From assembly GCA_038025085.1 (NCBI GenBank), contig CM076141.1, positions 20,655,001 to 20,719,000 on the forward strand: DNA of 64,000 nt, written 5' to 3'. Of this stretch, positions 5,579 through 47,556 are shown piece after piece (within the stretch, counting starts at the first letter, position 1; each line of letters starts with the position of its first letter). The notes under the pieces are model-generated. The model did not search any database, was not told the DNA's origin, and saw nothing but the letters and a program-made list of their open reading frames with translations. Origin of the DNA: Tetragonia tetragonoides. Lineage: Eukaryota > Streptophyta > Magnoliopsida > Caryophyllales > Aizoaceae. The position numbers were made by a program, and so were the translations under genes.

Positions 5579-6207
5579 ACATTGGCATCCCGTAAAAACG
5601 TAATTAAAAGCCTATCATGGACCAGATAATCGACCCCGGGGGCCTCCCATGTCCCTTAGGGATGTCCCGTGCGATATGGTGCGAAAATATACACCTATGG
5701 TCTGGAGCCTCTTGAAAGGCAAAAAAACGTGGATTGTACCCTTTGATTTTCGGCTTCCAGGGGCCCGGGTGTCATTTTTTCCCAAACATCTCCTAGGGGT
5801 CTATCATGAACCTAGAGGACCCTAGGCGCTCCGAGAGGGTCATCCTTATCCCCGAACTCCGATATCACCCATGACGCCGGTATTCCGACCCTTACATTGG
5901 CATCGCGTAAAACCGCCCTTACAAGCCTATCAGGTACCCAGTAATCGACCCTGTGGGCCTCCCATGTCCCCAATGGGTCTCCCGTGCGATATGGGGCAAA
6001 AATATTAACGTCGGAAAGTTTGTGTCCGGAGGCCCAAAACACGTCCCGAACAGCATTCCGGGGGCCCGGTTGCCGTTTTCGCACGAAATTTTTTTGGAGG
6101 CTCTATCATGTACCTAGGGGACCCCCGGTGCCCCGGGAGGATCACCTTCATCCCCGAACTCCAATATCACACATGTCGCCCGTATTCGGGACCTAACCTT
6201 GGCATCG
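5579..6207. repeat. Satellite/IGS-like tandem repeat, two units
   Basis: Two head-to-tail units start at 5579 and 5894 (315 and about 302 bp). Each opens with ACATTGGCATC and continues with CGTAAAA, CCTATCA, CCTCCCATGTCCC, GTGCGATATGG, CCCGAACTCCGATATCAC and a CCCGTATTC-like end. The first unit is diverged in its middle. LINE A begins at the start motif of the next unit. Confidence 0.9.
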
Positions 6208-6290
6208 TACATCGCGTTTTCTCTCTCTAAAATGCTCTCTCCTCTCTCCTCGACAGCGCTTGTTAGCCATTAACAAAGCCCTGAGTTCAA

Positions 6291-7692
6291 ATGGGGAAGA
6301 ACGGGAAAGCAGAAAAGGGAAAGGGGAATCAAGATGTAGATGCGGGAAATTCAGAAGCTCCAATATCTTCCACAAAAAATCGAACCAAAACACAACGAAC
6401 TAGCGAAAGCCATGAAAACCTAGATCGGGTTATGCGTAATTTAGCTGATGAACTGGAGGATCCAGAAGTGATGACACCTGCTGCGCAAACAAAAACAGTG
6501 CAGCAAATGGAACTTGCGAAGGAAAAAATCAACTCCTGGCTTACGAAGATGAAGGAAAGGGCAAACATTCAGAGCTCAGACGAGGAAGAGGAGCCAGTTC
6601 CAGTGCAAGGCAAACAGCATGCATTTGCTGATGCTGGTAAAACCTCGGCTTGGAAGAAATTTGACATAACTAAATTGAAAAATGCTGGGTTTAAATTGGA
6701 CTATATAGCACCTGCCTTGATTGATGGGAAACAAGTAGGAGAAATTGATTTCCAGGATATTGCATCTGAAATTATTTATTGGAATCAAGGAATTGTGTGC
6801 TATGTTATGGGCTCGAAGCCACCGATTAATGTGATTAGTGGATTCCTAAGGAGAATTTGGGCAAATAGGGGAATGAATAAAATTGCAATGATGAAAAATG
6901 GCCTAGTGATTATTAGATTTGATTCAATTGAGCAAAGGGATGCTATTCTAGAGGAAGGGGTTTATCATTTTGACAACAAACCTATGATTGTTAGACCATG
7001 GTCTGAGAATATAGACTATGCTCATGAGGAGCTCATGTCTGTACCTATCTGGGTTAAATTCCCAGGTCTGAATGTCAAGTATTGGAATGCTTTGGGTTTA
7101 AGCAAAGTTGCGAGTTTAGTCGGCAGGCCAATGATGGCTGATAAGAACACAGAACTCAAAGTAGGGATCCACTATGCTAGAGTGTTGGTGGAAGTAGAAA
7201 TAGGAGGGATATATCCAGACAAAGTGCACTTCAAGAATGAGAAAGGAAACTTATCAGAACAAGAAGTGGAGTATGACTGGAAACCTATATTATGTGGCCA
7301 CTGTAAAGCAACATGGGCACAGTCAATCAGAATGCAGAAAGAAGAAGGCCTTAACTAAGCCTGAGACCCTAGCAGTTCCAATTCAGCAACCAGCACAACC
7401 AGCAAATCCTAGGAACAATCAATGGCAAAATGTTGGGAGAGGTAGAGGAAGAATGGGAAATGCAGGGAGAGGGGTGAGAGCTGGAAGAGGAGTTTACAGA
7501 CAGGTGCAGCAGCCTGCCACAGAGAGACCACAAACACTGATACAGAACCCATTTCAGTTACTGCAAAATGAAGAGGGGGAGCAGGAGGGAACACAGGCAC
7601 AGCCAGCAGTGCAAGGTACACAGGAGGCTCAGAGCAAAGCATCAGTGCCACCACATGGTAAGTCACCTATCTTGACTGATAGTCATGGATAG
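6291..7692 (+). pseudogene. LINE A ORF1 (DUF4283 / zinc-knuckle RNA-binding protein), frameshifted
   Basis: It starts MGKNGKAEKG at 6291. ORF1 proteins of plant L1 elements bind the element RNA. A charged N-terminus is followed by a DUF4283 domain (NQGIVCYVMG, GFLRRIWANRGMNKIA, RFDSIEQRDAILEEGVYHF, KPMIVRPW) and the region around VPIWVKFPGLNVKYWN. A CCHC zinc knuckle comes next. One extra base in the knuckle (TGT AAAG CAA near 7306-7312) ends the first frame at 7358. The +1 frame then supplies HGHSQSEC and a Gly/Arg/Gln-rich tail, ending at 7692 in SPILTDSHG. ORF1 overlaps the ORF2 start by 8 bases (ATGGATAG). Copy B carries an extra base at the same codon. Confidence 0.85.
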
Positions 7693-10600
7693 GATTATGA
7701 TATTGAATGTTAGAGGCCTAAATGGCCCAAATAAACAGAGGGATGTTGCCCTCTATTGTAAAAAAAATAAATGTGGTTTGGTGGCTTTTCTCGAAACAAA
7801 AATTAGATTAGCCAACTATGAAAAATGCAAAAATAAATTTATGCAAGGGTGGGAATCTTTTAGTAACCATAGTGACCACAGGTTGGGAAGAATTTGGGTA
7901 AGATGGTTACCTGATGTATTTCATGTAGAATTAATTTTCTCCTCTGTGCAAATGGTCACTTGCAAAGTAAGGCATTTGGAGAGGAAAAAAGATTTTATGG
8001 TCAGTTTTGTATATGGATTAAATGAGAAAGAAGAAAGAAAACAACTGTGGAAGGATATAAATGACTTTGCTCTTATATGCAACAAACCATGGTTGATTGG
8101 TGGGGATTTCAACAATGTCTTGCTCCCTGGTAACAGACAAGGAGGTACACCAGTCACTCTTGCTGAAACTCAGGATTTTAAATCCTGTATTGAAGACTGC
8201 TACCTTACTGAACTAAACTGGTGTGGGTGTCAATACACCTGGAATAACAGACATGAGGAGGGGGGAAGAGTCTACTCAAAAATAGATTTGGCTTTTGCAA
8301 ATAGTCTCTGGCTGCTGGAGTATGATCAAAGCACCCTACAGTTCCTACCTGAGGATGTATCTGACCACTCTCCTATCTGCTTAACCCTCCACAAAACTTT
8401 CACCAAAAAAAAAACCCCCCTTTAAATTCTTTAAATTCTTTAACATGTGGAGCCTCCACTCTAATTTCCAAGACTTGGTGCAGCAAGCTTGGAATTGTAG
8501 AACACAAGGCACAAAAATGTTCAGAGTTTACCAAAAACTGAAAAAAGTGAAACATGTCCTGAGAAAATTAAACAGGGAGGAATTTAATGATATTCTAGCC
8601 CAGGCTGAAATTGCTAGAAAGGAAATGGCCCAAGCACAAACTGAAGCAAACAAGGAGCCCCTAAATGAGACATTGCAGAGAGCAGAAGCACAGGTTAGAA
8701 GGAGGTTTAATGAGCTAAATGCTGCTGCAGAGAACTTCTTACAACAAAAGAGCAAGGTCAAATGGGTACAATTGGGAGATGGCAATAACCCGTTCTTCCA
8801 TGCAATCATGAAACAGAGGAGACAGCAAAATAGGCTGCATTCCATCAAGACACAGGAGGGTACTTTGTTGGAAGACCAGGAGTCGATCATTGAGGAATTA
8901 GTGGGATTTTACAGGAACATGCTGGGGATATCTGGTACTAGAGACAACACTGCAGAAGGAAGCTTCTTCTCAGCACGACACAAATTAGACTTACAGGAGC
9001 AGTTGACCTTAAATGCACCAGTGACTGCTGATGAAGTGAGGGAAGCTATGTTTGCAATTGACTGCAACAAGAGTTCAGGGCCTGATGGTTTTGGCTCAGG
9101 ATTTTTCAAAGCATCGTGGCATATTGTGGGGGAAGAAGTGTCTAGTGCAGTAATCGATTTTTTTGATTCCTCTTAAATGCTTAAAGAGGTGAATGCAACT
9201 AACCTAAGTCTTGTGCAGAAAGTAACAAACCCTGAGAAGGCTTCTGATTTCAGGCCTATTGCGTGCTGCAACACCATCTACAAGTGCATATCCAAGATCC
9301 TCTGTGGGAGATTGGCTAGGGTACTTCCTCACCTCATCTCAGTGAACCAGGGTGCTTTTGTGGTGCAGAGATCAATAGTACACAACATCATGATTTGTCA
9401 AGACCTCATTAAGCACTACAGCAGAAAACAGTCTTCACCAAGATGCTTGATGAAGATAGACTTAAGGAAGGCCTATGACACAATCCACTGGAGTTTTATC
9501 AAGGAGATGCTGCAAGGATATGGATTTCCACTGAAATTCAGTGGATGCTTACTTGAGTGCATACAGACAGCCAGCTTCAGCATAAGTATGAATGGGGAGG
9601 TGCATGGATTCTTCCCTGCAAAACGTGGCATTAGACAGGGTGACCCCATGTCCCCACTCATTTTTGTGCTGGTAATGGAATACTTATCAAGAATCCTGAA
9701 ACTTGCTTGCATGGAAAATAGCTTCAGCTGGCACCCTATGTGCAAAGATCTTACATTGAACCACCTGTGCTTCGCTGATGATCTGATGTGTTTCTGCAAA
9801 GCAAACCCTGAATCTGTAAGTATTATGATGAATTGCATTAACTACTTTGCACATGCTACTGGATTATATGCAAATAAGGAGAAATCCAACATGTACATAG
9901 CTGGTGTAAATGAGGAGGTTAAGAGAGCATTGTTACACTTGTCTGGCTTCAAGGAGGATACACTTCCCATGAAATACCTAGGGGTGCCACTCTCCCCATC
10001 AAAGTGGAACAAAATGGATTGTGAGTGCCTGGTGGAAAAAATTACCAAAAAGCTACAAATATGGGCTTCTAGGAACCTCTCATATGCAGGAAGGGTCCAA
10101 CTTATTAACTCTGTTCTGATCTCTATACATGTGTACTGGTCTAGCATTTTCATAATGCCAGCTGGGGTACTCAAGAGTGTAGAGCAAAAGTGTAGGTTTT
10201 TCCTGTGGGGGTCCTCTGATGAAAAACATAAGGCCAACCTGGTGGCATGGGACTTGGTGTGTAGACCGAGGAAAAATGGGGGCTTGAACATCAAGAGCTG
10301 CAAATGGTTCAATATAGCTTTAAATGGAAAGCATATATGGGATCTGGCCACAAAAAAGGATACATTGTGGGTGAAATGGGTAAATGGAGTTTACTTGAAG
10401 GGGATTAACTTCTGGAATTATGCACCTGTATGGGGATCCAGTTGGTACTGGAAAAAACTCAACAAAATCAAGAATTTATTCCAGGAACAGTACACAGTGA
10501 GAGGGATTTGGAAGAGGGCACCTGATGGTTGTTATTCTGCTGCAAGTGGATACAGTGTACTCACAGGGGATTTACCCAAATCCAGACATGCCAATCTGAT

Positions 10601-11087
10601 TTGGGGAAAGTTAACAATGCCAAGGCATAGCTTCTGCCTCTGGCTTGCACAACAGGGGAGATTACTAACCAAGGACAGGGTACAGAAAATGGGATTCCTT
10701 CAAGGAGGGGCTGTATGCAATATGTGCAAAGCGGAGTTAGAAGACCATGGCCACTTATTCTTCAGCTGTAATGTGTCAACAGAGGTTATAATGCAAGTAA
10801 AAGCCTGGTTACAGATGCCTTCTTGAGCAAACTCAATACAGGGCCTGCTTAACTGGATAAGTAGGCAGAAATGTTCAATGTTCAGAAAGGAGGTCTATGC
10901 TGTAGGGATCGCAGGAGCTGTGTACTGGTTATGGAGGAGCAGGAACCTCCAGCACTTTGAGGGGAGCAGACCAACAGTCACGCAGATCTTGCAACAGATC
11001 CAACAGCAAGTCAGAATCAGAACACACGAACCCAGCAGGAAGAGGAAGATCAAGAGCAAAGATAAAAGATGGCTGGAAAATGTTTAA
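7685..11087 (+). pseudogene. LINE A ORF2 (endonuclease-reverse transcriptase), broken
   Basis: It starts MDRIMILNVRGLNGPN at 7685. An APE-type endonuclease (catalytic Glu in AFLETKI, GGDFNNVL, VSDHSP) is followed by reverse transcriptase (SSGPDGFGSGFFK, MKIDLRKAYDTIHW, KRGIRQGDPMSP, CFADDLMCF) and a C-terminal zinc-binding RT-associated domain (CNMCKAELEDHGHLFFSC). No RNase H domain follows. Lesions are a one-base insertion and a 9-base duplication in the A/C run near 8405-8440, a TAA at 9174 and a TGA at 10824. The frame then stays open to 11087. The residue before AFAN in the SKID motif is Leu rather than the Trp seen in copies B, C and D. Confidence 0.88.
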
Positions 11088-11908
11088 TGCTCTCTACAGA
11101 AAAATGAGAGTATCAAGGCAGAATGCAGCAGATCAGCAATGAAGCAGTACAGCAGCTCCAAAAGCAAATCAGAGCCAGTACATCAGGTTATAAGCAGACA
11201 ACCCTGCAGCCAGCAAGGCATGAGTACCTGTGCAGGGATTCAGAGAGCAGGGGTAGTAGTAGGTCAGAAGCATCCAGCAGACATGCAAGACTTAAGGCCT
11301 GTGCAGGAATATAGACAGCAGAGGTTCAGCAGGGGGGCAGCAGGAATGCATCAAGCAATTAGCAAAAGGCATCAGGACATGAGCAGGAAAAAGATAGCAG
11401 GTTTCAGAAGGGGAGCTGATCAGTGTGCTGAAAATTGGTAGAAAGGCTCAGAAAAATCAGAAGCAGTTTGTTCTGTAAGGCAGAACCCAGCAGGAAGGCA
11501 GGACCAGACTCCAGGAGAGGTTTTAGCAGGAAAAACAGAGGACATGCAGGGCTCCAGCACCTGTACAGGGATCTAGACAGTAGATTGATGTAGATCAGCT
11601 TGATGGGCACAGCAGGTAGATGAAGCAAGAAAGAAGGAGGAATGAATCAGCTTCTGGAAGTTTTTGTTGTAATATTTTTAGATATCTATATTTTTGTATT
11701 TTGCTGTAAGTCAGAAATAATTTTTGCAAATTGTAATGTTTACAGAGATGGTGAGAAACAATTTTTGCAATTTGTAATGTTTACAGAGAGGGTGAACCAC
11801 TGCCTGTAGTGAGTTGCACCAGATTGAAGGGTTGTAAGGTAGTAGAGGGATGTAGAAAAAAGGAACCCTACCTAGTAGGTGGCCTTGGATCTGCATTGCC
11901 TAAGGACT

Positions 11909-11928
11909 GTAATCTTGTTACATTACAG
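11909..11928 (+). promoter_or_regulatory. Conserved 3'-terminal stem-loop of the LINE family
   Basis: TGTAAT and ATTACA form a 6-bp stem around an 8-base loop, about 30-50 bases before the A tail. The same block occurs in every copy: E 12385-12404, B 18135-18154, C 23844-23863, D 28977-28996. Only the loop of E differs, by one base. In stringent-type LINEs a 3' stem-loop is what the reverse transcriptase recognises, and that role is inferred here. Confidence 0.6.
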
Positions 11929-11975
11929 AGAGCAATAATACAATTTCTGACTTGCACCAAAAAAAAAAAAAAAAA

Positions 11976-12272
11976 CTAGGCATCGTGTAAAACCGCCCTT
12001 ACAAGCCTATCCGGGACCCAATAACTGACCCTGGGGGGCTCGCATCCATTGCGATATGGAGCAAAAATAATGACGTCGAAAAGTTTGTGTCCAGAGGCCC
12101 AGAACACGTCCCCTAGAGCATTCTTGGGGCCCGTTTGCCGTTTTCGCCTGAAATTTTATCGGGGGCTCTATCTTGGACCTTGGGGACCCCCGGAGCCCCG
12201 GGAGGGTCACCTTCATCCCCGAACTCCGATATAACACATGTCGCCCGTATTTGGGCCCTAACATTGGCATCG
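11976..12272. repeat. Satellite/IGS-like repeat, one unit
   Basis: The unit resumes directly after the LINE A tail (TAGGCATCGTGTAAAACCGC) and ends in the next ACATTGGCATCG at 12261-12272. At about 290 bp it is slightly shorter than the other units, because part of the CCCATGTCCCC block is missing. Confidence 0.9.
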
Positions 12273-12446
12273 CAGGTTGTAGTGTGCTGGTCCAGTAATG
12301 TTAGGTTTGTATGGTTGTTAGGGGATGTAGATCCTAAGGAACCCTACCTAGTAGGTGGCCTTGAATTTACATTGCCCTATGGGCTGTAATCTTGCTACAT
12401 TACAGCTGTTATTAATAGAATTTCTGATTTGCACCAAAAAAAAAAA
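12273..12446 (+). mobile_element. LINE copy E, extreme 5'-truncated insertion (3' UTR tail only)
   Basis: These 174 bases match only the end of the LINE 3' UTR (AGTGTGCTGGTCCAGTAATG, CCTACCTAGTAGGTGGCC, the stem-loop, TTTGCACC and an A tail). Perfect copies of ACATTGGCATCG flank it at 12261-12272 and 12447-12458. That is the signature of an abortive target-primed insertion. Its tail is closest to copy D, not to A, B or C. Confidence 0.93.
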
Positions 12447-12761
12447 ACATTGGCATCGCGTAAAATCTCCCTTACAAGCCTACAAGGGACCTAGTAACCG
12501 ACCCTGGGGGGCCTCCTATGACCCCTAGGGGTCTCCCGTGCGATATGGGGCGAAAATTTTGACGTCGAAAATTTGCGTCCTAAGGCCCAAAACACGTTCG
12601 CCAGAGCATTCCCAGGGCCCGGATGCCAATTATGCCTGAAATGTTTTCGGGCGAATCTATCATGGCCCCAGGGGACCTCCGGTACCTCGGGACGGTCACC
12701 TTCATCCCCAAACTCCGATATCAAACATTTCGCCCGTATTCAGGCCCTAACATTGGCATCG
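12447..12761. repeat. Satellite/IGS-like repeat, one unit
   Basis: The unit runs from the ACATTGGCATCG after copy E to the ACATTGGCATCG (12750-12761) at which copy B is inserted. The spacing is 303 bp. Confidence 0.92.
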
Positions 12762-12860
12762 AATTTCAGGCCTCACAAACTCGACACTTTCTCTCTCTAA
12801 AATGCTCTCAACTCTGGCCTCTACAGTGCTCGCTCACCATTGATGCAGCGCTGAGTTCTA

Positions 12861-14250
12861 ATGGGGAAGAAGGACAAAGCTAAGAGAGGGATTGGAAATC
12901 AAGATGACGATGCGGGAAATTCAGGAAATCAACCTTGTCCCACGAAAAATGTGTCTCAAAAACAACGAAGCAGCATAAACCATGAAAACCTAGATCGAGT
13001 TATGCGAAATCTTGCGAATGAATTAGAAGATTCAGAGGTAATGATGCCAGATGTCCAAACAGAAACTGTGCAGCAAATGGAATTAGCAAAGGAAAAAATC
13101 AATTCATGGCTTTCAAAGATGAAGGAAAAGGCAAAATCGCAAAGCTCTTCAGAATCTGAGGATGAAGAACCTAAGCAAGATAAACAACAGGAGGCTACAG
13201 CTGCTGGTAAGGTTTCAACTTGGGATAAATTTGATATATCTAAAATGAAAAATGCTGGTTTCAAATTGGATTATGTTGCACCAAATCTGCATGAGGGAAA
13301 ACCAGTGGGAGAAATAAATTTTATGGACATTGAATCAGAAATTAATTACTGGAACAAAGCTGTAGTTTGCTATGTGATGGGCTCTAAACCACCAATTAAC
13401 ATTCTTAGTGGTTTTCTAAGAAGAATTTGGGCAAAAAAAGGGATGAACAAGATAGCAAGCTTGAGAAATGGGCTAGTTTTGGTTAGATTTGACTCGTTGG
13501 AGCAACGAGATGCTGTTATCCAGGAGGGGGTGTACCATTTTGATAACAAACCCATGATAGTTAGGCCATGGTCAGAAAACATAGACTATGCTCAAGAGGA
13601 ACTCACTTCTGTGCCAATATGGGTCAAATTCCCTGGACTTAAGTATTGGAATGCAATGGGATTGAGCAAAATTGCAAGTCTGGTTGGAAGGCCAATGATG
13701 GCAGACAGAAATACAGAGCTCAAGGTGGGGATTCACTATGCTAGAGTCCTGATTGAAGTGCAAATAGGAGAGGATTACCCTGAGAAAATGCTTTTCAAGA
13801 ATGAGAGGGGGAACATAGTAGAACAAGAAGTGGACTATGATTGGAAGCCCATTCTGTGTAGTCACTGTAAAACAATATGGTCATAGTGAAACAGAATGCA
13901 GGAAAAAGAAGCATGTGCCTGCACCTGTGCAACAAGGGCCTGTGCATACTCAGCCTGCACAGCAGGAAATTCCTAGGGCTCAACAGTGGCAGAATGCAGG
14001 AAGAGGTAGAGGGCGAGCATGGAATGCAGGAAGAGGAGCAAGAACAGGAAGAGGCTACTACAGACAAGTTCAGCAGGCCAGAACTGTTATGCAAAACAGT
14101 TTTGACATTTTGCAAAATCAAGAAGAAATACAGGAAATCCAAAAGGAACAGACAGAAGCAGTAGTGGAGCCTGAGCAGCAAAAAGAGCAGAATTCAGATG
14201 AGGTGCCATTGCATGGTAAGTCTCCTATCTTGACTGGTAGTCATGGATAG
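12861..14250 (+). pseudogene. LINE B ORF1, intact except for one extra base in the zinc knuckle
   Basis: It starts MGKKDKAKRG at 12861. The DUF4283 region (INYWNKAVVCYVMG, GFLRRIWAKKGMNKIA, RFDSLEQRDAVIQEGVYHF) is complete, and the downstream PIWVKFPGL lacks two residues (NV) relative to the other copies. The frame stops at 13886 because one extra A in TGT AAAA CAA (about 13867-13872) disrupts the CCHC knuckle. The +1 frame continues with YGHSETECRKKK, a Gln/Arg/Gly-rich tail and SPILTGSHG to 14250, overlapping ORF2 by ATGGATAG. It could be a mutation or a +1 recoding site; copy A has the same lesion. Confidence 0.88.
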
Positions 14251-17200
14251 GATACTAGTTTGGAATTTCAGAGGCCTTAATGGCCCAAATAAACAGAGGG
14301 ATGTTTCCCTCTTTTGCAAAGAAAATAATTGTGGTTTGGTGGCTTTTCTAGAAATAGTAATCAGACTGGTTAACCTAGAAAAATACAAAAATAGTTTCAT
14401 GCCAGGTTGGGACTCTTACAACAATCACAATGAGCATAGATTGGGTAGAATATGGTTAAGATGGTTACCAAGCATTTTCAATGTGGATGTGATATTCTCA
14501 TCTGTGCAAATGATTATCTGTAAAGTGGTAAATATGGTGAAAAAAATGGAATTTGTGGTAAGCTTTGTATATGGCGTAAATGAAAAGGAGGAAAGAAGAG
14601 CACTATGGAAGGACCTAAATGATTTTGCAATTAATTGCAATAATCCATGGTTTATAGGGGGGGATTTTAATAATGTCTTGTTCCCTGAAAATAGAAAAGG
14701 TGGAGTACCAGTTGCTTATGCAGAAATACAGGATTTTAAAGAGTGCATAGAAAAATGTTTCCTCACTGAAATGGGGTGGTCAGGGTGCCAGTTTACTTGG
14801 AATAATAGGCATGAAAAGGGGGGGAGAGTTTATTCTAAAATTGATTGGGCTTTTGTAAACAGTCTCTGGCTACAGGAATTTGATCAATCTGATCTTATAT
14901 TCCACCCAGAGGGAGTTTCTGACCATTCCCCAATCTGTCTGTCTCTCCATAGAGAACTTACAAAAAAACACATCCCCTTTAAGTATTTCAACATGTGGAG
15001 CCTCCACTCTAATTTCCAAGCTAAGGTGCAGCAAGCTTGGAACTTCAGAACACAAGGCACAAAAATGTTCAGAGTGTACCAGAAATTGAAAAATGTGAGA
15101 ACAGTGCTAAAAAAGCTAAACAGGAATGAATTCAGACACATCCTTGCACAGGCAGATACAGCTAGGTTAGCCATGACTCAAGCACAGATTGAAGCCAACA
15201 AGGAGCCATTAAATGAGACAATGCAACAGCTTGAAGTACAGGCCAGGAAAAGATATAATGAGGTTAACATGGCAGCTGAAAATTTCTTACGGCAGAAAAG
15301 CAAGGCAAAGTGGATTCAGCTGGGAGATAGAAATAATCAATTCTTCCATGCAGTCATGAAGCAAAGAAGAAACAATAATAGAATCCATTCCATTAGGACA
15401 CAGCAGGGGACCCTACTGGAAGATCAGAACTTGGTTATGGAAGAATTTGTGAGGTTTTACAGGGATATGCTGGGGGTATCAGGGGTCAGAGCAACCACAG
15501 AAGAAGACAAATATTTCCAAGCAGGCCACAAACTGGACATTCACCAACAGATGAACCTCATAGCCCCTGTGAATGCAGATGAGGTGAAAAAAGCAATGTA
15601 TGAAATTGATTGCAATAAAAGCCCGGGACCTGATTGGTTTGGATCAGGTTTTTTCAAAGAAACATGGCAAATTATAGGGGAAGAAGTGACTGGAGCTATA
15701 ATTGATTTTTTTGACTCATCTAGAATGCTCAAGGAGGTGAATGCTACAAACTTATGCCTTGTACAGAAGATACAAAATCTGGAAAAGGCTTTAGATCTCA
15801 GACCAATTGCTTGTTGTAATACAATCTACAAATGCATCTCCAAGATCTTGTGTGGGAGACTGGCAAAAGTACTACCTGAGCTGGTGTCAGTGAACCAGGG
15901 AGCCTTTGTTAGACAGAGGTCTATTGTCAACAACATCATTATATGTCAGGATCTTATTAAGCACTATAACAGGAAACAATCATCTCCTAGGTGCTTAATG
16001 AAGATAGACATAAGGAAAGCATATGACACCATACACTGGGGCTTTCTGAAGGAAATGCTGCAAGGGCATGGATTCCCTGTAAAATTCAGTGGATGGCTAT
16101 TAGAATGCATCAAAACAGCAAGTTTCAGTATTAATATAAATGGAGAAGCACATGGAAACTTTATTGCAAAACGTGGTATCAGACAAGGTGACCCAATCTC
16201 TCCATTAATATTTGTACTGGTAATGGAATATCTGTCAAGGATCCTGAAAATAGCATGCATGGACAAGAGCTTCAGCTGGCACCCCATGTGCAAAGATCTT
16301 GCATTAAGTCACCTGTGCTTTGCTGATGACTTAATGTGTTTCTGTAAAGCAGACCCTGCATCTGTGAGCACCATGATGAACAGCATAAACCATTTCTCAA
16401 AAGCAACAGGCTTGTATGCAAACAAGGAAAAATCAAACATTTACATAGCAGGGGTGAATGAACAAGGAAAAAATGAACTGTTACACATTTCAAGCTTCAG
16501 GGAGGGTACTTTGCCCATGAGATACCTAGGTGTCCCACTATCCCCTTCAACATGGAGCAAAATAGATTGTGAATGCTTGGTGGACAAAATGACAAAAAAG
16601 TTGCAGATCTGGGCCTCTAGGAACCTTTCTTATGCAGGGAGAGTCCAACTAATAAACTCTGTATTATTCTCCATTCATGTATACTGGTCAAGCATCTTCA
16701 TAATGCCAACTGGGGTACATAAAAGTGTGGAGCAAAAATGTAGATTTTTCTTGTGGGGGACAACTGAACAGAAGAATAAGACAAGCTTGGTGGCTTGGGA
16801 TATTGTGTGCAAACCAAGGAAAAATGCGGGACTTAATGTAAAGAATTGCAAATGGTTCAACATAGCTCTAAATGGCAAGCACATCTGGGATATAGCAACA
16901 AAAAAAGACACTTTGTGGGTGAGATGGATCAATGGGGTTTATCTGAAAGGAGTAAATCTCTGGAATTATGCTCCAGTATGGGGCACAAGCTGGTACTGGA
17001 ATAAACTGAACAAAATCAAAAGTTACTTCCAGGGGCAATACACAACAAGGGGGGTATGGAAATATGCATCTGATGGCATTTATTCTGCTGCAAGTGGATA
17101 CAGAATGCTACAAGGAAACATGCCAAAATGTAGACATGCAGATTTGATATGGGGGAAGATATCCATGCCTAGACATAGCTTTTGCCTGTGGCTGGCTCAA

Positions 17201-17638: not shown

Positions 17639-18228
17639 TCAGAAGTGAACTGGACCAGAACATGCAGTAGAGCAAGCAGACAGTCTGCATCAGACAGAAA
17701 AGGCAGCATCAGAACTAATCAGGGCTTCAGCAAAAAATCAAGCAATTCTGCAAGGCATCAAAACATGTGTAGGAAAATAGGCAGCAGGTTTCATAAGGGA
17801 AGCAGAAGCAGGTTTGCTGTAGCTAGGCTGAGAATCAGGTAGCAGGGCCCAGCAGGTAATCAGTAGCAGCTGCTGAAGCCAGACAGTGTGAAGAATGTTA
17901 CAGAATTCAGAAGTATTGGAAAACTAGAAGAAGCTGTAATATTTTTAGCTTAATATGTTTTTGTATTTTGTTGTAAGTCAGTAAAGATTGCTGTAATTTG
18001 TTGTGTTTACAGAGATGGTGAACCACTGCCTGTAGTGAGTTACACCAGAATTGAAGGGTTGTAAGGTAGTGAAGGGATGCAGAAAAAAGGAACCCTACCT
18101 AGTAGGTGGCCTTGGATCTGCATTGCCTAAGGGTTGTAATCTTGTTACATTACAGTGAGCAATAACACAATTTCTGACTTGCACCAAAAAAAAACAAAAA
18201 AAAAAAAAAAAAAAAAACAAAAAACAAA

Positions 18229-18839
18229 ACATTGGCATCGAGTAAAACCGCCCTTAAAAGCCTATCAGGGACATAATAAACGACCCTAAGGGCCTCCCAT
18301 GTCCCCTACGGGTCTGCCGTGCGATATGGGGCAAAAATATTGACGTTGAAAATTTGCGTTCGGAGGCCCAGAACACAGCCCCTTGAGCATTCCCGGGGCC
18401 TGGTTGCCGTTTTCGCCCGAAATTTTTTCGGCGGCTCTATCATGGCCCTAGGGGACCCCTGGTGCCCCGGGATGGTCAACTTCATCCCCGAATTCCGATA
18501 TCACACATGTCGCCCGTATTCCGGCCTAAACATTAGCATCGCGTAAAATCGCCCTTACATGCCTATCAGGGACCCAATAATCGACCCTAGGGGCCTCCCA
18601 TGTTCCCTAGGGGTCTCCCGTGCGATATGTGGCGAAAATATTGACGTCGAAAAGTTTGCGTCCGGAGGCCCAGAATACGTCCCATAGAGCATTCCCGGGG
18701 CCCGGTTGCCATTTTTGCCCGAAATTTTTTCGGTGGCTCTATCATGGCCCTAGGGAACACCTGGTGCCCCGGGAGGGTCAACTTCATCCCCGAACTCCGA
18801 TATCACTCATGTCGCCCGTATTCGGGCCTTAACATTGGC
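18229..18839. repeat. Satellite/IGS-like tandem repeat, two units
   Basis: Units begin at 18229 and 18530 (ACATTAGCATCG), 301 and 302 bp long. They are close to each other, sharing GTGCGATATG, ATTGACGT, GAGCATTCCCGGGGCC, TTTTTTCGG and GGCTCTATCATGG. Copy C interrupts the next start motif after ACATTGGC at 18832-18839. Confidence 0.92.
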
Positions 18840-20013
18840 GAAAGAAAAAATCAATTCTTGGATGTCGAAGATGAAGGAAAGGGCTAACAACCAAGGTTCG
18901 GATGAGGAAGAGGCTGAAATTGCAGAAAAAGGCAAACAACAGCAATTTGCAGATACAGGTAAAACATCTGCTTGGGAAAAATTCGACATAACTAAGCTTA
19001 AAAATGCTGGATTTAAACTGGATTTTATAGCACCTGTTATGGTCGAAGGAAAACCTGTAGGAGAAATTAATTTCAAGGACATAGAATCTGAAATTAATTA
19101 CTGGAACCAATCTGTTGTTTGCTATGTCATGGGATCAAGGCCACCTATTAATGTGCTTAGTGGTTTTCTTAGAAGAATTTGGTCGAAGAGGGGCATGAAT
19201 AAAATAGCACAGATGAAATATGGGCTAGTAATTGTTAGATTTGATTCAATGGAACAGAGAGATGCTGTGCTAGAGGAAGGGGTTTATCACTTTGATAATA
19301 AACCCATGATTGTGAGACCTTGGGCTGAGAATATAGACTATGTACATGAGGAACTCACATCTGTTCCCATTTGGGTTAAATTCCCTGGTTTGAATGTCAA
19401 GTATTGGAATGCAATGGGGCTGAGCAAAATTGCAAGCCTTGTAGGTAGACCAATGATGGCTGACAGGAACACTGAACTGAAAATAGGAATTCAGTATGCC
19501 AGGGTACTGATTGAAGTGGAAATAGGGGGAGATTACCCTGATAAGGTGCACTACAAGAATGAAAGAGGGAATATAGTGGAGCAAGAAGTTGAGTATGACT
19601 GGAAACCTGTACTATGCAACTATTGCGAACAACATGGACATAGTGAGACTGAATGCAGGAAAAAGACAGTAACACAGGAACCTGAGACTCAATCAGGGCC
19701 TAAGCAGCAACTACCTGTACAGCAACCTAAGCCAAGAGAGCAATGGCTGAATGCAGGGAGAGGCAGAGGCAGAATGGGCAATGCAGGGAGAGGGATGAGG
19801 GCTGGGAGAGGATACTACAGACAAATCCAACAGACAAACAATGCTACAACTCAGTTACAGAATCCCTTTCATATACTGCAAAATACAGATGGGGAACAGG
19901 AGGGGAAGCAGACACAAGGTCCAGAAACAGTGCCAGGCACACAAGATGATCAGACACAAGAGAAAGTGCCAATACATGGTAAGTCTCCTATCTTGACTAG
20001 TAGTCATGGATAG
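18840..20013 (+). pseudogene. LINE C ORF1, 5'-truncated but otherwise open
   Basis: The frame enters from the truncation point (KEKINSWMSKMKERA) and stays open to 20013. It has the DUF4283 core (NQSVVCYVMG, GFLRRIWSKRGMNKIA, MIVRPWAENIDYV) and an in-frame CCHC zinc knuckle, CNYCEQHGHSETEC. It also has a Gly/Arg-rich tail and the terminal SPILTSSHG. It lacks the extra base seen in copies A and B, so it shows the uninterrupted reading frame of this family. No native start codon remains. Confidence 0.88.
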
Positions 20014-23000
20014 GTTGCTTATATGGAATTTTAGAGGCCTGAATGGCCCAAATAAGCAGAGGGATGTGGCCCTCTATTGTAAAAAAAAAAAATGTGGTTT
20101 GGTGGCTTTTCTTGAAACAAAAATTAGATTAGTTTATTTGGAAAAATGCAAAAAAAGCTTCATGACAGAGTGGGAATCCTTTAGTAATCATAATGAACAT
20201 AGACATGGCAGAATTTGGATTAGATGGTTACCTGAATATTTTCATGTTGAAATTATCTTCTCCTCTGTGCAAATGGTCATATGTAAAGTGAGAAATATGG
20301 AGAGGAAAAAGGATTTTGTGGTGAGTTTTGTATATGGAATGAATGAAAAAGAAGATAGGAAGCAACTGTGGAATGATATTAATGATTTTGCTACTGTCTG
20401 CAACAAACCATGGATTGTTGGGGGAGACTTCAACAATGTCCTGCTACCTGGGAACAGACAAGGTGCCCTGCCAGTCACTCTTGCTGAAATACAGGATTTT
20501 AAAGCCTGTATTGATAGCAGTTTCCTCACTGAAATGAGGTGATCTGGGTGCCAATTTACCTGGAATAATAGACATGAGGGGGGGGGGAAGAGTATACTCT
20601 AAGATAGACTGGGCCTTTGTAAACAGCTTCTGGGTACAGGAGTTTGACCAGTGCACTCTACAGTTCATGCCAGAGGATGTATCTGATCATACCCCTATCT
20701 GCATTACTCTTCACAAAAACCTAACTATAAATAAATCCCCCTTTAAATTCTTCAATATGTGGTGCCTCCACTCTGAATTCCTAGCCTTGGTGCAGCAAGC
20801 ATGGAATTGTAGAACAAAAGGTACAAAAATGTTTAGGGTTTACCAAAAATTGAAAAGTGTAAAACATGCCCTGAAAAAGCTTAACAGAACTGAATTCAGT
20901 GACATCTTAGCCCAGACTGATATTGCTAGATCAGTAATGAATCAAGCCCAATCAGAAGCAAACAAAGAGCCACTGAATGAGATATTGCAGAAGGGAGAAA
21001 TCAAGGCTAGGAGTAGGTTCAATGAACTGAACATGGCAGCTGAGATTTTCCTACAACAAAAAAGTAAGGCTAGATGGGTGCAATTGGGAGATGGAAATAA
21101 TCAGTTTTTCCATGCAATTATGAAACAGAGAAGGCAACAAAACAACCTACACTCCATAAAGACACAAGAGAGCATCGTACTGGAGGACAAAGACCTGATT
21201 ATTGAAGAATTTGTGGGGTTTTACAGGAGTATGTTGGGGGTATCAGGCTCTAGAGATACTACAGCAGAGGAGAGCTTCTTTTCAGCAGGAAATAAACTTA
21301 ATATGCAACAACAACTGACCATCATTACACCTGTGACTGCTGAAGAAGTACAGAGAGCTATGTTTGACATTGACAGCAATAAAAGCCCAGGCCCTGATGG
21401 CTTTGGATCAGGTTTTTTCAAAGAAACATGGAGCATTGTGGGGGAAGAAGTGACCAGTGCAATTATAGACTTTTTTGAGTCCTCTAAAATGCTTAAAGAA
21501 GTAAATGCAACTAACCTTTGTCTTGTGCAGAAGATAGAAAACCCAGAAAAGGCTTCTGATTTCAGACCTATAGCATGCTGCAACACCATAAACAAATGCA
21601 TCTCCAAGATCCTCTGTGGGAGATTGGCAACAGTGCTACCTGATCTCATCTCTGTAAACCAGGGTGCTTTTGTGGCACAGAGGTCAATTGTACACAACAT
21701 CATGATATGTCAGGACCTAATTAAGCACTACAACAGGAAGCAATCCTCACCTAGATGCTTGATGAAGATTGACCTTAGGAAAGTATATGACACAATCCAT
21801 TGGAGATTTGTCAAAGAGATGCTGCAAGGGTATGGGTTCCCAGTCAAGTTCATGGGCTGGATACTTGAATGTATACAAACTGCAAGCTTCAGCATCAACA
21901 TAAATGGAGGGAAGCATGGTTACTTTCTTGCTAAACGAGGCATCAGGCAGGGAGACCCAGTATCTCCATTGATTTTTGTGCTGGTCATGGAATATCTCTC
22001 AAGAATTCTGAAAATAGCATGCATGGAAAAAAGCTTCAGTTGGCACCCAATGTGCAAGGAACTTGCACTGAGTCACTTGTGCTTTGCTGATGACTTGATG
22101 TGTTTCTGCAAAGCATCCCCTGAATCTGTAAGTATAATGATGAATTGCATTAACTACTTTGCACAAGCTACTGGCCTGTATGCTAACAAGGAGAAATCCA
22201 ACTTATACATAGTTGGTGTGAATGAGGAAAGTAAAAAAGAACTGTTAGCAATATCTGGGTTCAGGGAGGGAACACTACCTATGAAGTATTTAGGAGTCCC
22301 ACTTTCCCCATCAAAATGGAGTAAAATTGACTGTGAGTGCTTGGTTGATAAAATGACAAGAAAATTGCAGATCTGGGCTTCTAGGAATCTCTCATATGTA
22401 GGAAGAGCTCAACTCATAAATTCTGTGCTGTTTTCTATACATGTGTACTGGTCTAGCATATTTATACTGCCTGCAGGGGTACTTAAAAGGGTAGAAAAAA
22501 AATGCAGAGATTTCTTATGGGGGTCCACTGATCAGAAGCAGAAAACCAGTCTGGTGGCTTGGGATATGGTTTGCAGACCTAGGAAAAATGGAGGCATAAA
22601 CATAAAAAACTGCAAATGGTTTAATATTGCCCTAAATGGGAAACATATCTGGGATTTAGCCACAAAAAAAGATACCTTGTGGGTAAAATGGATTAATGGA
22701 ATATATCTGAAAGGTACCAACTTCTGGAACTATGCACCAGTCTGGGGTGCCAGTTGGTACTGGAATAAACTCAACAAAATCAAGACATATTTCCAGGAGC
22801 ATTATACAGTTAGAGGGGTCTGGAAGGGAGATGCTAGTGGATGCTATACAGCTGCAAGGGGATACAGTACTCTGCTGGGAGTTATGCCAAAGTATAGACA
22901 TGCCAATCTGATTTGGGGAAGGGTAACCATGCCAAGACACAGTTCCTGCTTATGGCTAGCTCAGCAGGGAAGACTACTAACTAAGGACAGATTGCTGAAA

Positions 23001-23399
23001 ATGGGTTTTTTGAATGGTGATGTTGTTTGCAATATGTGTAAAGCAAAGCCAAAAGACCATAATCACCTTTTCTTCAGCTGCAGTGTGGCAACAGGTGTAT
23101 TAGATCAGCTGAGATGCTGGTTGCAGATTACACCAAGAGCAAACACAATTCAGGGCATGCTGAACTGGATAACCAGGCAGAAATGTTCAATTTTCAGGAA
23201 AGAAGTGTATGCAGCAGGGCTTGCAGCAGCTGTATACTGGGTATGGAGAGGCAGGAATATCAAGCACTTTGTGGGAAGCAGTCTATCTATATGACAGACC
23301 ATGCAGCAGATACAGCAAACAGTGAGGATCAGAATACAGCAATGCAGCAGGCTAAGAAAGATCAACAGCAGGGATAAAAAATGGTTAGAGAGATTTTAA
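20006..23399 (+). pseudogene. LINE C ORF2, three lesions
   Basis: It starts MDRLLIWNFRGLNGPN at 20006, overlapping the ORF1 stop by 8 bases. A TGA at 20540 replaces a Trp codon. A lengthened G run near 20578-20588 shifts the frame. From 20574 the frame is open through the rest of the endonuclease (SKIDWAFVN), RT (MKIDLRKVYDTIHW, CFADDLMCF) and the zinc-binding domain (CNMCKAKPKDHNHLFFSC). A late TGA at 23292 precedes a further 35 in-frame codons that match the ends of copies A and D. Confidence 0.88.
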
Positions 23400-23993
23400 C
23401 TGATCTGTTTACCACAGCAGACCCAGCAGAAAGGCAGGACCAGACTCCAATAGAGGTTTTAGCAGGAAAAACAGAAGATATGCAGGGCTCCAGCACCTGT
23501 ACAGGGATCTAGACAGTAGATTGATGTAGATCAGCTTGATGGGCACAGCAGGCAGTTGAAGCAAGAAAGAAGGAGGAATGAATCAGCTTCTGGAAGTTTT
23601 TGTTGTAATATTTTTAGATATTTATGTTTTTGTATTTTGCTGTAAGTCAGAAATAATTTTTGCAAATTGTAATGTTTACAGAGATGGTGAGAAACAATTT
23701 TTGCAATTTGTAATGTTTACGGAGAGGGTGAACCACTGCCTGTAGTGAGTTGCACCAGATTGAAGGGTTGTAAGGTAGTAGAGGGATTTAGCAAAAAGGT
23801 ACCCTACCTAGTAGGTGGCCTTGGATCTGCATTGCCTAAGAACTGTAATCTTGTTACATTACAGAGAGCAATAATACAATTTCTGACTTGCACCAAAAAA
23901 AAAAACATTGGCATCGCGTTTTCTCTCTCTAGAAATGCTCCCTCCTCTCTCCTCGGCACTGCTCGTTAACCATTAACGGAGCTTTGAGTTTCA

Positions 23994-25390
23994 ATGGGGA
24001 AGAAGGATAAAGCAAAGTGAGGGACTGAAATCATGATGATGTTGCGGAAAATTCAGTGGCTCCCCCGTGTCCTACAAAAAATGCGACTCATAGGCAATGT
24101 AACAGTACCAACCGAGACAACCTAGATCGGGTTGTTCGCAATCTCACAGATGAATTGGAGGCTCCTGAAGTCATGACGCCTGAAGTGCAAACTGAAACAG
24201 TGCAACAGATGGAATTAGCAAGAGAGAAAATTAATTCCTGGCTCTCGAAGATGAAGGAGAAGGCCAAAACTCAATTTTCGTCTGAAGATGAAGATGAAGC
24301 TTCAGACAAAGCCAAACATCAAGAATCGGCAGATGTAGGTAAGATCTCAGCCTGGGAAAAATTTGATATCTCCAAATTGAAAAATGCTGGATTTAAATTG
24401 TATTTTATTGCGCCTACTATGCATGAGGGTAAACCAGTTGGGAAAATTAATTTCGTGGATATTGAATCTGAAATTAACTACTGGAACAAAGCGATTGTAT
24501 GCTGTGTAATGGGGTCAAGACCACCAATTAATGTTTTCAGTGGATTTCTAAGAAGAATTTGGGCAAAACGGGGGATGAACAAAATTGCAATGATGAAAAA
24601 TGGCTTAGTTTTGGTTCGTTTTGACTCCCTAGAGCAGAGGGATGCTGTAATACAGGAAGGGGTTTATCACTTTGACAATAAACCTATGATAGTCAGGCCA
24701 TGGTTTGAAAATGTGGATTATGCTCATGAGGAATTGACTTCGGTTCCTATATGGGTAAAATTCCCTGGATTAAATGTGAAATATTGGAAAGCAATGGGAT
24801 TGAGCAAAATTGCAAGTCTTGTTGGAAGACCAATGATGGCAGATAGAAATACAGAGCTCAAGGTAGGGATTCACTATGCCAGAGTGCTGATTGAAGTAGA
24901 AATTGGTGGTGTATACCCTGACAAGGTGCACTATAAGAATGAGAGGGGCAATATTGTGGAACAGGAGGTGGAATATGTCTGGAAACCTATTATATGCAGT
25001 CATTGCAAACAATATGGGCATAGTGAACCTGAATGCAGAAAGAAGAAAGCTGTTGCAGCCCCTGTAACTCAAACTGTGCCTGTGCAGAACCAACAAGCAC
25101 AGCAAGAAAATAGGAAGCAGCAATGACAGAATGCAGGGAGAGGGAGAGGTAGAATGTGGAATGCAGGGAGAGGATTGAGAGCTGGAAGAGGTTACAGACA
25201 AATCCAGCAACCAAAAAATGGCAATCCACAGACACAGAATTCCTTTGATCTACTGCAAAATGAAAGAGAAGTGCAGGAAGTGCAAATGACACAAGATGAA
25301 ACAGAAGAGTCCGGGATACAGGAAGATCTGCACACAGGTATGGTGCCACCACATGGTAAGTCTCCTATCTTGACTGGTAGTCATGGATAG
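23994..25390 (+). pseudogene. LINE D ORF1, broken at both ends
   Basis: The native start MGKKDKAK (23994) runs into TGA at 24018 and a frameshift. The frame from 24056 then encodes the acidic N-terminal region, DUF4283 (NKAIVCCVMG, GFLRRIWAKRGMNKIA) and an intact, in-frame CCHC knuckle (CSHCKQYGHSEPEC). A TGA at 25124 (Trp in the other copies) precedes the Gly/Arg-rich tail, which ends at 25390. Confidence 0.85.
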
Positions 25391-28300
25391 GATCCTTATA
25401 TGGAATGTGAGAGGCCTTAATGGCCCTAATAAGCAGAGGGAAGTTGCCCTTTTCTGCAAAAAGAATAGTTGTGGCTTGATCGCTTTTCTACAAACTAAAA
25501 TAAGATTAGTTAATCCGGAAAAATGCAAAACCAGTTTCATGCCAGGGTGAGAATCATATAGTAATCATAATGATCATAGGTTGGGTAGAATTTGGTTAAG
25601 ATGGTTGCCAAATTATTTTCATGTTAATGTGATCTTTTCTTCTGTGCAAATGATCATCTGTAAAGTAATTAATATTGTGAAGAAAATGGAGTTTGTGGTG
25701 AGCTTTGTATATGGCCTAAATGAAAAGGAGGAAAGGAAGCAATTGTGGAAGGATCTAACTGATTTTGCAATTAATTGCAATACACCCTGGATTGTTTGGG
25801 GGGGGGGGGGAGGGGCATTTCAACAATGTTTTATTACCTGGCAATAGACAAGGAGGAGTACCAGTTACATATGCTGAAATACAAGACTTTAAAGCTTGCA
25901 TTGAAGACTGTTTCCTCATAGAATTGGGCTGGTCTGGGTGTCAATACACCTGGAATAATAGGCATGAGGGGGGAGGGAGAGTTTACTCCAAAATTGATTG
26001 GGCATTTGCCAACAGCCTCTGGATCCAGGAGCATGATCAGTTTGATCTACAATTTCATCCAGAGGGTGTATCTGACCACTCTCTAATCTGTTTAACACTA
26101 CAAAAAGAATTCACAAAAAAAAGAAATATCCCCTTTAAATTCTTTAACATGTGGAGCCTCCACTCTGAATTCCAAGCAATGGTGCAGCAAGCATCGAATT
26201 ACAGAACACAAGGCACAAAAATGTTTAGAGTGTATCAAAAACTGAAAGGAGTGAGGGTAGTTCTGAAAAAGCTAAATATGGAAGAATTTAGTGACATTTT
26301 AGCTCAAGCAGACATTGCAAGACTTGCTATGACCCAAGCTCAAGCAGAAGCAAACAAGGAGCCTCTAACTGAGGCATTGCAGCAGAAAGAAATACAGGTC
26401 AGGATGAGGTATAATGAAGTGAATATGGCAGTTGAGAACTTTTTACAACAAAAAAGCAAGGCCAGATGGATTCAATTGGGAGACGTGAACACTCAATTTT
26501 TTCATGCAGTCATGAAGCAGAGGAGACAACAGAACAGACTGCACTCCATTAAGACACAGGAGGGTGTCCTACTGGAAGACCAGAATTTGATTATGGAGGA
26601 ATTTGTGGGGTTTTACAAAGAGATGCTGGGGGTCACAGGTGTGTCAGAGACACAATAGCAGAAGAGAGCTTTTTCTTTGCAGGACACAGACTAGACTTGC
26701 ATCAACAGATGACCCTGATTGCCCCTGTAAATGCTGATGAAGTGAAGAAAGCCATGTTTGATATTGACTGTAACAAAAGTCCAGGTCCTGATGGTTTTGG
26801 ATTAGGATTTTTCAAAGAAGCTTGGCATATTGTGGGGCCAGAAGTGACTGAAGCTATTATAGATTTTTTTGACTCCTCCAAATTGCTCAAAGAGGTGAAT
26901 GCCACAAATCTGTGTCTTGTGCAGAAGATACCTAATCCTGAGAAGGCATCTGACTTCAGACCTATAGCTTGCTGCAATACCATCTACAAGTGCATCTCCA
27001 AGATTCTGTGTGGGAGATTGGCAAGAGTGCTTCCTGTACTTGTCTCTGTGAACCAGGGAGCTTTTGTGGCTCAAAGATCAATAGTCCACAACATAATGAT
27101 ATGTCAGGATCTTATTAAGCATTACAATAGGAAAAAATACTCTCCTAGATGCTTGATGAAGATTGACCTAAGGAAAGCTTATGACACAATTCATTGGGGT
27201 TTTATCAAGGAAATGCTGCAAGGGTATGGTTTCCCTGTAAAGTTCAGTGGCTGGCTGCTGGAGTGCATCCAAACTGCTAGTTTTAGCATCAACATGAATG
27301 GGGAAGCACATGGATACTTTACTGCAAAACGTGGCATTAGGCAGGGAGATCCAATTTCTCCATTAATCTTTGTCCTGGTAATGGAATATTTATCAAGAAT
27401 TCTGAAGATAGCATGTACAGACAAGCGCTTCAGCTGGCATCCCATGTGCAAAGAACTTGCACTGAGTCACCTCTGCTTTGCTGATGACCTGTAGTGCTTC
27501 TGCAAAGCTGCCCCTGAATCTGTGAGTATCATGATAAACAACATTAATTATTTTTCACAAGCTACTGGATTGTGTGCAAACAAGGAGAAATCTAATATGT
27601 ATGTAGCTGGTGTAAGTGAACAAATTAAGAATGAGTTGTTTTGTGTGTCAGGATTTAGGGAGGGGGCATTGCCCATGAAATACTTGGGTGTTCCATTGTC
27701 TCCATCTAAATGGAGCAAAATAGACTGTGAATGCTTGGTGGAAAAAATGACAAAAAAATTGCAGATTTGGGCCTCCAGGAACCTCTCATATGCAGGAAGG
27801 GCTCAACTAATTAATTCTGTATTATTTTCTATACATGTATACTGGTCGAGCATTTTCATAATGCCTGCTGGGGCACTGAAAAGTGTAGAACAAAGATGCA
27901 GATTATTTTTGTTGGGATCTATTGAATAGAAACACAAGACAAATTTGGTAGCCTGGGACATTGTATGCAGACCAAGGAAAAATGGTGGAATAAATGTAAA
28001 GAATTGCAAATGGTTCAACATAGCACTAAATGGGAAGCATATTTGGGATGTAGCCACCAAAAAACATACAATGTGGGTAAAATGGATAAGTGGGGTTTAT
28101 TTGAAAGGAGAAAATTTCTGGAACTATGTTCCTGTGTGGGGATCCAGTTGGTACTGGAAAAAGCTCAATAAAATCAAAAGCTTTTTCCATGATCAATATA
28201 CAGCTAGAGGAGTGTGGAAAGGTGCACCTGATGGGATATATTCAGCAGCAAGTGGATACAGAGTATTAACAGGAGACATGCCAAAGTACAGACATGCTGA

Positions 28301-28793
28301 TTTGATTTGGGGGAAGATCTCTATGCCAAGACAAAGTTTCTGCCTGTGGCTGGTTCAAATGGGCAGATTGCTAACTAAAGACAGGATGCTGAAAATGGGT
28401 TTCTTGAATGGAGATACTATGTGTCACCTGTGCAAGCTGAAACTAGAAGATCACAATCACCTGTTCTTCAACTGTACGGTGTCCACAGAGGTTATGGATC
28501 AGCTAAGGGGTTGGCTGCAAATGTTAGCAAAAGCAAATACAGTTCAGGGCATGCTCAATTGGATAAGCAGGCAAAAGTGTTCAAGATTCAGAAAGGAAGT
28601 GTATGCAGCAGGGCTTGCAGCAGCAGGTTACTGGATATGGAGATGCAGGAACATTCAGCATTTTGAGGGAAGCAGAATGCCACTGTCACAGATCATGCAG
28701 CAGATTTAGCAGACAGTCAGAATCAGAGTACAACAATGCAGCAGCAAGAGAAAGATTAACAGCAAAGATAAGAATTGGATAAGTTTCCTGTAA
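25383..28793 (+). pseudogene. LINE D ORF2, many stops and frameshifts
   Basis: It starts with the conserved ATG in the ORF1 overlap (MDRILIWNVRGLNGPN). The endonuclease Glu is Gln (AFLQTKI). A TGA lies near 25548. An expanded G run at 25799-25812 shifts the frame, and a deletion near 26640-26655 shifts it again. A TAG at 27492 follows directly after CFADDL, and further stops lie at 27927 and 28707. The remaining frames retain SPGPDGFG, MKIDLRKAYDTIHW, KRGIRQGDPISP and the zinc-binding domain (CHLCKLKLEDHNHLFFNC). It is dead. Confidence 0.88.
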
Positions 28794-29030
28794 TATGTTA
28801 TTTTTAGTTTGTGGAGCTACTGTAAGTAGGAAATGCTTGTCTTCTGATGAAGTTATGAGGAGCCACTGTGTGTAGTGTGCTGGTCCAGTAATGTAAGGTC
28901 TGTTTGGTTGTAAAGGGATGTATATCCTAAGGAACCCTACCTAGTAGGTGGCCTTGTATTTACAGTGCCTGTGGGCTGTAATCTTGTTACATTACAGCAA
29001 GTAATAATACAAGTTCTGATTTGCACCAAA

Positions 29031-29225
29031 ACATTGGCATCTCGTAAAACCGCCCTTACAAGCCTATTTGAGACCAAATAACCAACCCTAGGGGCCTTCC
29101 ATGTCCCCTAGGAGTATCGCATGCGATATGGGGAGAAAATAGTAACGTCGAAAAGTTTGCGTCCGGAGGAACAGAAAATGTCGGCTAGAGCATTCCCGGG
29201 GCCCGGTTGCCATCATGGCCCTAGA
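29031..29225. repeat. Satellite/IGS-like repeat, truncated last unit
   Basis: The unit starts at ACATTGGCATCTCG after copy D and is recognisable through GTGCGATATGG-like, GTTTGCGTCCGG and GAGCATTCCCGGGGCCCGGTT. It then breaks into CATCATGGCCCTAG and the minisatellite. The final third of the unit is absent. Confidence 0.85.
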
Positions 29226-47478: not shown

Positions 47479-47556
47479 CCAGCATCCCGTAAATCCTATA
47501 TATATGCAAAAATGCGGGCCAAAAGAAGTCAGAAATCCACGAAAAAGCCCAAACTA

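Follow-up and report, generated by a model that had tools for sequence, protein, structure and literature searches.

A plant L1-type LINE family located mostly at one fixed word of a 302-bp satellite in Tetragonia tetragonoides

The window analysed here is a stretch of 64,000 nucleotides of the Tetragonia tetragonoides genome (C3:20655001-20719000 of a 752.8-Mb assembly; coordinates are window positions unless a contig is named), and contains a short satellite array at 5568-29211 that is interrupted by five copies (A, E, B, C and D) of a long interspersed nuclear element (LINE) family of the plant L1 type. The satellite has a 302-bp consensus and is 58% GC, with 67-90% pairwise identity among the six monomer units compared. 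All five LINE copies are on the + strand and join the satellite at one 12-bp word, ACATTGGCATCG, which is also where most copies sampled from the assembly sit. The array is laid out as follows.

5579-6195, + strand: two unoccupied satellite monomers, each starting with the target word (5579 and 5894)
6196-6207, + strand: target word 5′ of copy A, ACCTTGGCATCG
6208-11974, + strand: LINE copy A, with 5′ core, broken open reading frames (ORFs) and poly(A) tail
11975-12260, + strand: decayed word ACTAGGCATCG after A, and a satellite monomer
12261-12272, + strand: target word 5′ of copy E
12273-12446, + strand: LINE copy E, a 5′-truncated remnant of 174 bp with tail, with the second type of 3′ untranslated region (UTR), like D
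12447-12749, + strand: word after E, and a satellite monomer
12750-12761, + strand: target word 5′ of copy B
12762-18228, + strand: LINE copy B, with 5′ core and a tail of ~43 nt; ORF2 open, ORF1 shifted once
18229-18831, + strand: word after B, then two monomers of the satellite with an empty internal site at 18530 (ACATTAGCATCG)
18832-18839, + strand: partial word ACATTGGC 5′ of copy C
18840-23904, + strand: LINE copy C, 5′-truncated within ORF1
23905-23916, + strand: single word between C and D, a head-to-tail pair
23917-29030, + strand: LINE copy D, with 5′ core, second 3′-UTR type and broken ORFs
29031-29211, + strand: word after D (ACATTGGCATCT) and the partial last satellite monomer

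With up to one mismatch allowed, the window contains 10 occurrences of the word where 0.29 would be expected, always on the + strand and between 5579 and 29042. Each copy has the 3′ end TTGCACC(A)n followed directly by the satellite word, and its 5′ end is preceded by the word or by the first 8 bases of it. A first-pass annotation of this DNA had described five copies in a 302-bp tandem repeat, all in one orientation, and both statements are borne out. Its description of tails that end directly before one word holds for all five copies, with the qualifications that the word 3′ of A has decayed (11975-11985), that the word after D has the final base T, and that C ends and D begins at one and the same word. 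A word before each 5′ end, also claimed, is present at A, E, B and D, but C retains the partial form only. Target duplications, which were read on both sides for the window copies only, are present as proposed; the range of 12-14 bp given for them is too narrow, as they extend from 8 to ~15 bp, with an ambiguity of a few bases where A is present in both tail and target. A BLAST search of the window with copy B found no other member of the family. A tRNA or Rfam gene as the target was rejected, there being no match in the window (for Rfam at the gathering score).

Copy B has the following parts.

12864-13886, + strand: ORF1 (DUF4283), with a +1 frame shift at a zinc-knuckle codon
14243-17638, + strand: ORF2, open, 1131 amino acids, with endonuclease, RVT_1 and zf-RVT domains
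14243-14980, + strand: endonuclease domain, 246 amino acids, modelled at a mean predicted local distance difference test (pLDDT) score of 94.4
18023-18187, + strand: conserved 3′ end, with predicted hairpins CCTAC-CTA-GTAGG and CTGTAAT..ATTACAG-like

The family has the traits of plant L1-clade elements: an ORF2 with APE-type endonuclease, reverse transcriptase (RT) and zf-RVT, DUF4283 in ORF1 (4.3e-31), a poly(A) tail (median length 12, range 4-55), 5′ truncation and target duplication. The best match of ORF2 among solved structures is human L1 ORF2p (2.4e-40), the next other elements being 8gh6 (9.3e-20) and R2 (4e-14); an uninterrupted frame of 1134 amino acids is found in 14 of the 121 copies sampled below. 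The endonuclease domain has a ratio of nonsynonymous to synonymous substitution (dN/dS) of 0.085-0.18 with invariant catalytic-type residues, and its predicted fold, modelled from a 55-row alignment (an earlier input of seven window pieces gave a pLDDT of 35), is L1-like and nearer to human L1 than to TRAS1. Searched against PDB sequences, the domain gave a best E of 0.57. In a tree of the 55 endonuclease rows the two window rows form their own branch, and the tree does not fix the place of the family. The predicted 3′ hairpins are common to B, A, C, D and E, with covariation nearly absent (two-sided change in 1 of 41 pairs).

Most sampled copies of the family do not lie at unrelated sites, a possibility that the first-pass annotation had raised and that was put to samples of the assembly. 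A search with the RT of copy B, blind to flanking sequence, gave 15081 candidates, of which 121, B among them, were scored; 3′ regions were obtained for all 121, with 108 readable junctions. Of the 13 dropped, 12 had an end that could not be read (in 5 cases a run of N) and one had tail only (L128); L126, L135 and L137 were counted though read from inside the A run with the element end out of view. Scoring by script allowed up to 3 mismatches of 11 directly after the tail. The word directly follows the tail at 93 of the 108 junctions (92 by script, L061 by eye), and six more have a truncated word (four, its first 4-8 bases) or a decayed one (two) followed by another LINE, giving 99/108 when these are included. 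Nine are in unrelated DNA, and none of the 108 is at any other position of the satellite. Beyond the junction, satellite lies within 20 nt in 60 cases and another LINE within 60 nt in 34 (27 different element starts); five (L009, L023, L063, L114 and L135) have neither clear satellite nor LINE after the word.

In searches of the whole assembly, the exact 3′ end occurs at 1525 places, and exact CATTGGC follows within 30 nt after 890 of these matches (about 1 in 100 listed rows being counted twice), against 0 for a scrambled heptamer; the word plus AG, with one mismatch allowed, occurs 2433 times, versus 61 for the reversed control. On every one of the 16 large contigs (C1-C16), the on-target copies cluster in one to a few blocks, mostly interior and possibly centromeric or pericentromeric. 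Smaller on-target sets lie nearer contig ends (C9:3.2, C10:3.6 and C13:37.0 Mb), and the blocks on C1 and at 28.8-29.0 on C2 each have a single orientation.

Several observations show that the targeting leaks. Contig C1 has 46 exact 3′ ends, of which 32 lie on a single strand in one 0.19-Mb block (27 with exact CATTGGC, four with a variant or truncated word, namely L173, L174, L175 and L179, and one, at 25011142, unread) and 14 are dispersed on both strands; none of these 14, and none of five dispersed ends among the C2 matches listed, is at the word. A search with the RT of copy D scored 150 of 11775 candidates, and 21 copies tied at one score, of which 20 were fetched, 19 could be read and one was N. 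Judging from the tie, these copies are presumably young, with identical RT; 14 of the 19 are at the word and five (L191, L193, L194, L201 and L203) are elsewhere. The targeting is thus a strong preference with a leak and no absolute rule, copies elsewhere amounting to 9/108, 14/46 and 5/19. As in a target-specific LINE, most copies are nonetheless at one base-exact site (93/108, 14/19 of the tied copies and 31/46 of the C1 ends, one unread). The off-target sites resemble the beginning of the word slightly at most, and a reading of them as clearly degenerate words was rejected, the likeness being only marginal. Several dispersed ends (L145-L163) and off-target tied copies have a 3′ UTR only ~77-80% like that of B, and others are up to 99% like A; the dispersed minority with a diverged 3′ UTR is perhaps a less specific sub-family.

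The dispersed copies, and the off-target fractions of 9/108 in the B-like set and 5/19 in the tied set, are what might be expected if insertions occurred everywhere and persisted only in satellite blocks, the others being purged. This is very improbable, as purging cannot produce a base-exact position in the monomer, and the presumably young tied set is still at the word in 14 of 19 cases.

We consider it highly probable that the family reached this word through its own endonuclease, which would recognise the word and nick the bottom strand just before it. The site is CTAACATTGGCATCG, with an inferred bottom-strand nick context of TGTT^AG. The nick is expected directly before CATTGGCATCG on the bottom strand, at 5′-CGATGCCAATGTT^AGG-3′ or within ~2 bases. 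It would leave a TT end with which the poly(A) tail of the RNA could pair, and target-primed reverse transcription would begin there; a top-strand cut ~8-15 bases downstream would then duplicate the word. In the consensus monomer 15 strand positions, including the used one, match TTTT^AA at at least 4 of 6 positions, and two match better. Because there are 15 comparable positions in the monomer and the sample uses one, the word itself is read by something, and TRAS1 and R1 offer an analogy under which the reader is likely to be the endonuclease.

Tethering to heterochromatin or centromeres, combined with an ordinary loose L1 endonuclease for which the word is the best local nick site, would account for the clustering of copies in blocks on all 16 large contigs and for a nick context that is half L1-like (TGTT^AG, 4/6 matches to TTTT^AA). 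Centromere-enriched plant LINEs such as Celine, with loose AAGA/AATA sites, provide a parallel (PMC11288735). We regard this as unlikely, because 14 other strand positions of the monomer match the L1 motif at least equally well (two match it better) and 0/108 junctions are found there, and because the head-to-tail pairs indicate that the word need not be flanked by satellite on both sides. Tethering may add to the choice made by the endonuclease. Insertion into a nick made recurrently by the host, or into a fragile site, at the word, with no part for an endonuclease of the element, is hardly credible given the purifying selection on that domain (dN/dS 0.085-0.18), its invariant catalytic-type residues and its L1-like modelled fold; the target duplications are consistent with staggered cuts.

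The common junction and orientation would also be inherited if one ancient insertion had been amplified with the satellite as a composite unit. However, ORF2 of A, B, C and D, which lie in one array, has a synonymous divergence (dS) of 1.15-2.12 with dN/dS of 0.075-0.109. Dead copies amplified with a satellite are expected to drift toward a dN/dS of 1. With dS above 1.1 and so low a dN/dS, A-D are derived from lineages long kept functional: they are four lineages long under purifying selection, each at the same word, and not one insertion amplified with the satellite. The first-pass annotation had argued for separate insertions and had named segmental duplication of one unit as the alternative; the former is upheld by the ORF2 dS and by sampled flanks that are mostly distinct, and the latter does not apply to A-D.

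Local duplication of LINE-satellite segments does occur, and qualifies this conclusion. Five pairs of 3′ flanks in the sample taken with the RT of copy B are at least 95% identical, one of them completely (L081/L082), and the rest are mostly distinct; near-identical flanks are also seen for L169/L181 and L176/L177, three C1 ends are spaced exactly 2183 bp apart, and two identical pairs occur among 95 head-to-tail junctions. Evenly spaced or repeated copies are found at C1:25002088-25006454 (the 2183-bp spacing) and C4:27.89-27.98 Mb (L081/L082). Because some copies have been duplicated as segments, our counts are of copies and not of events. As the main process, composite amplification is scarcely tenable and was rejected, since copies that tie for a single RT score are flanked by different DNA, 27 of the 34 elements found after the word have distinct starts, and two head-to-tail copies use one word, in addition to the ORF2 divergence.

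The head-to-tail arrangement of C and D is common in the assembly, where the pattern of tail, word and 5′ core gives the 95 junctions, with 93 distinct strings. An insertion leaves a word beside which other insertions sit; duplication of the word on insertion means that the target is kept, which accounts for head-to-tail LINE arrays. Between target duplication and element, an extra 6-mer of AACATTGGCATCGCG is present in 49 of the 93 strings (shuffled fillers: mean 2.0, largest 8), a 9-mer of it in 23, and in 14 the complete word is repeated with no more than one mismatch. Extra whole or partial words are seen at 5′ junctions such as L061, L073, L134, L143 and L182, and at 6196-6225 in the window. 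Possible sources of these 5′ relics are RNAs starting upstream in the word of the parent or the tail of a neighbour, template jumping onto the target, and serial insertions truncated to the tail, of which L056 looks like a stub. The relics would follow from transcription that begins within the word or 5′ of it; if transcripts began solely at TTTCTCTC, template jumping or tail-only insertions would be indicated.

Plant L1 elements are usually credited with a loose, A/T-rich target preference, of which Celine (PMC11288735) is an example, and the first-pass annotation regarded a fixed satellite target as unusual for them. A satellite-aimed plant L1 is, however, not without precedent. The closest precedent found is the L1-CS LINEs of Cuscuta europaea, which have two adjacent preferred sites in CUS-TR24 and of which 91% are near the satellite (PMC8091179). 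These too are a plant L1-type lineage enriched in one satellite, with many diverged elements and target duplications of ~13-16 bp, and recurrent targeted insertion was favoured over composite amplification (PMC8091179). They differ in that two adjacent regions are used, and in that the sites are TTCTA and TTTCAA, which resemble the L1 consensus (PMC8091179). The Tetragonia family has neither of these sites (CTAACATTGGCATCG, nick context TGTT^AG); it has one base-exact word of 12 bp and mixed bases, in another satellite (302 bp), and a duplicated word used by two elements. For the endonuclease, the Cuscuta species compared was C. australis, in which two sequences show 42-43% identity across 59-77% of the query.

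TRAS1 and SART1 of the R1 clade share with the family an APE-type endonuclease, a fixed position in a tandem repeat, a poly(A) tail and a TT^AGG nick context (PMC7265360, PMC2868851), and GTTAG was found essential at the TRAS1 site (PMC7265360); around the inferred nick, TT^A agrees with nicks of the L1 type and GTTAGG with the site of TRAS1. They differ in being insect elements of telomeric (TTAGG)n, and the Tetragonia endonuclease model is nearer to human L1 than to TRAS1. The Tx1 group of the L1 clade (Tx1, Keno) is likewise L1-related and target-specific (PMC3747384, PMC4640811), but consists of animal elements, for example Keno in U2 genes, whereas the Tetragonia target is a satellite; Keno is reported to be absent outside animals (PMC4640811). 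Celine of poplar (PMC11288735) and HaCEN-LINE of sunflower (PMC4628103) are plant LINEs concentrated in centromere regions, and Celine ORF1 also has DUF4283; Celine differs in having no fixed site, with its own target duplication for each element and a loose AAGA/AATA preference (PMC11288735). The family appears to work like R1, TRAS or Tx1 elements, by analogy and with no claim of membership in any of them. A literature search that covered mostly titles and abstract openings, with subscription papers and preprints outside its scope, listed no further plant LINE that has a base-exact site in a satellite.

A broader proposal, offered tentatively and judged somewhat short of probable, is that a land-plant L1 independently evolved single-position targeting of R1/TRAS grade to a 12-bp word, that duplication of the word provides self-renewing landing strips on 16 chromosomes and LINE-word-LINE arrays, and that RNAs or cDNAs pick up the target word, giving the stacked 5′ relics (49/93). 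With word, satellite and open ORF2 frames in one genome, site choice by an L1-type endonuclease becomes testable, and the compact mixed-base target is useful for studying insertion choice. The family also suggests a way for satellite blocks to become filled with LINEs without damage to genes.

Other features of the window copies concern their coding regions and 3′ ends. One extra base is present at the same zinc-knuckle codon of ORF1 in A and B (7281-7310 and 13845-13875) and not in C or D, and coincidence, shared ancestry or a programmed frameshift are possible reasons. In each of the four long copies (7685, 14243, 20006 and 25383) the stop of ORF1 overlaps the start of ORF2 within ATGGATAG, an arrangement that suggests coupled translation. 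The last ~450 aligned bases of A and C are 97.6% identical, including a 41-bp tandem duplication (~11500-11958 and 23420-23892), with only 56.5% identity at four-fold degenerate coding sites, and by this sequence comparison the A/C 3′ module appears swapped or converted. The 3′ end of B groups with A and C, yet its ORFs are nearest to D.

The satellite array is adjoined by a 22-44-bp minisatellite (CATGGTGCTGCAACG...) at 29265-29934, and genes of Ty3-type long terminal repeat retrotransposons flank it on both sides, at 602-4293 (-), 30729-34608 (-) and 43746-45307 (+). Two ORFs that match the plant mobile domain lie at 46420-47553 (-), where the match is below the gathering score, and at 49413-50357 (-).
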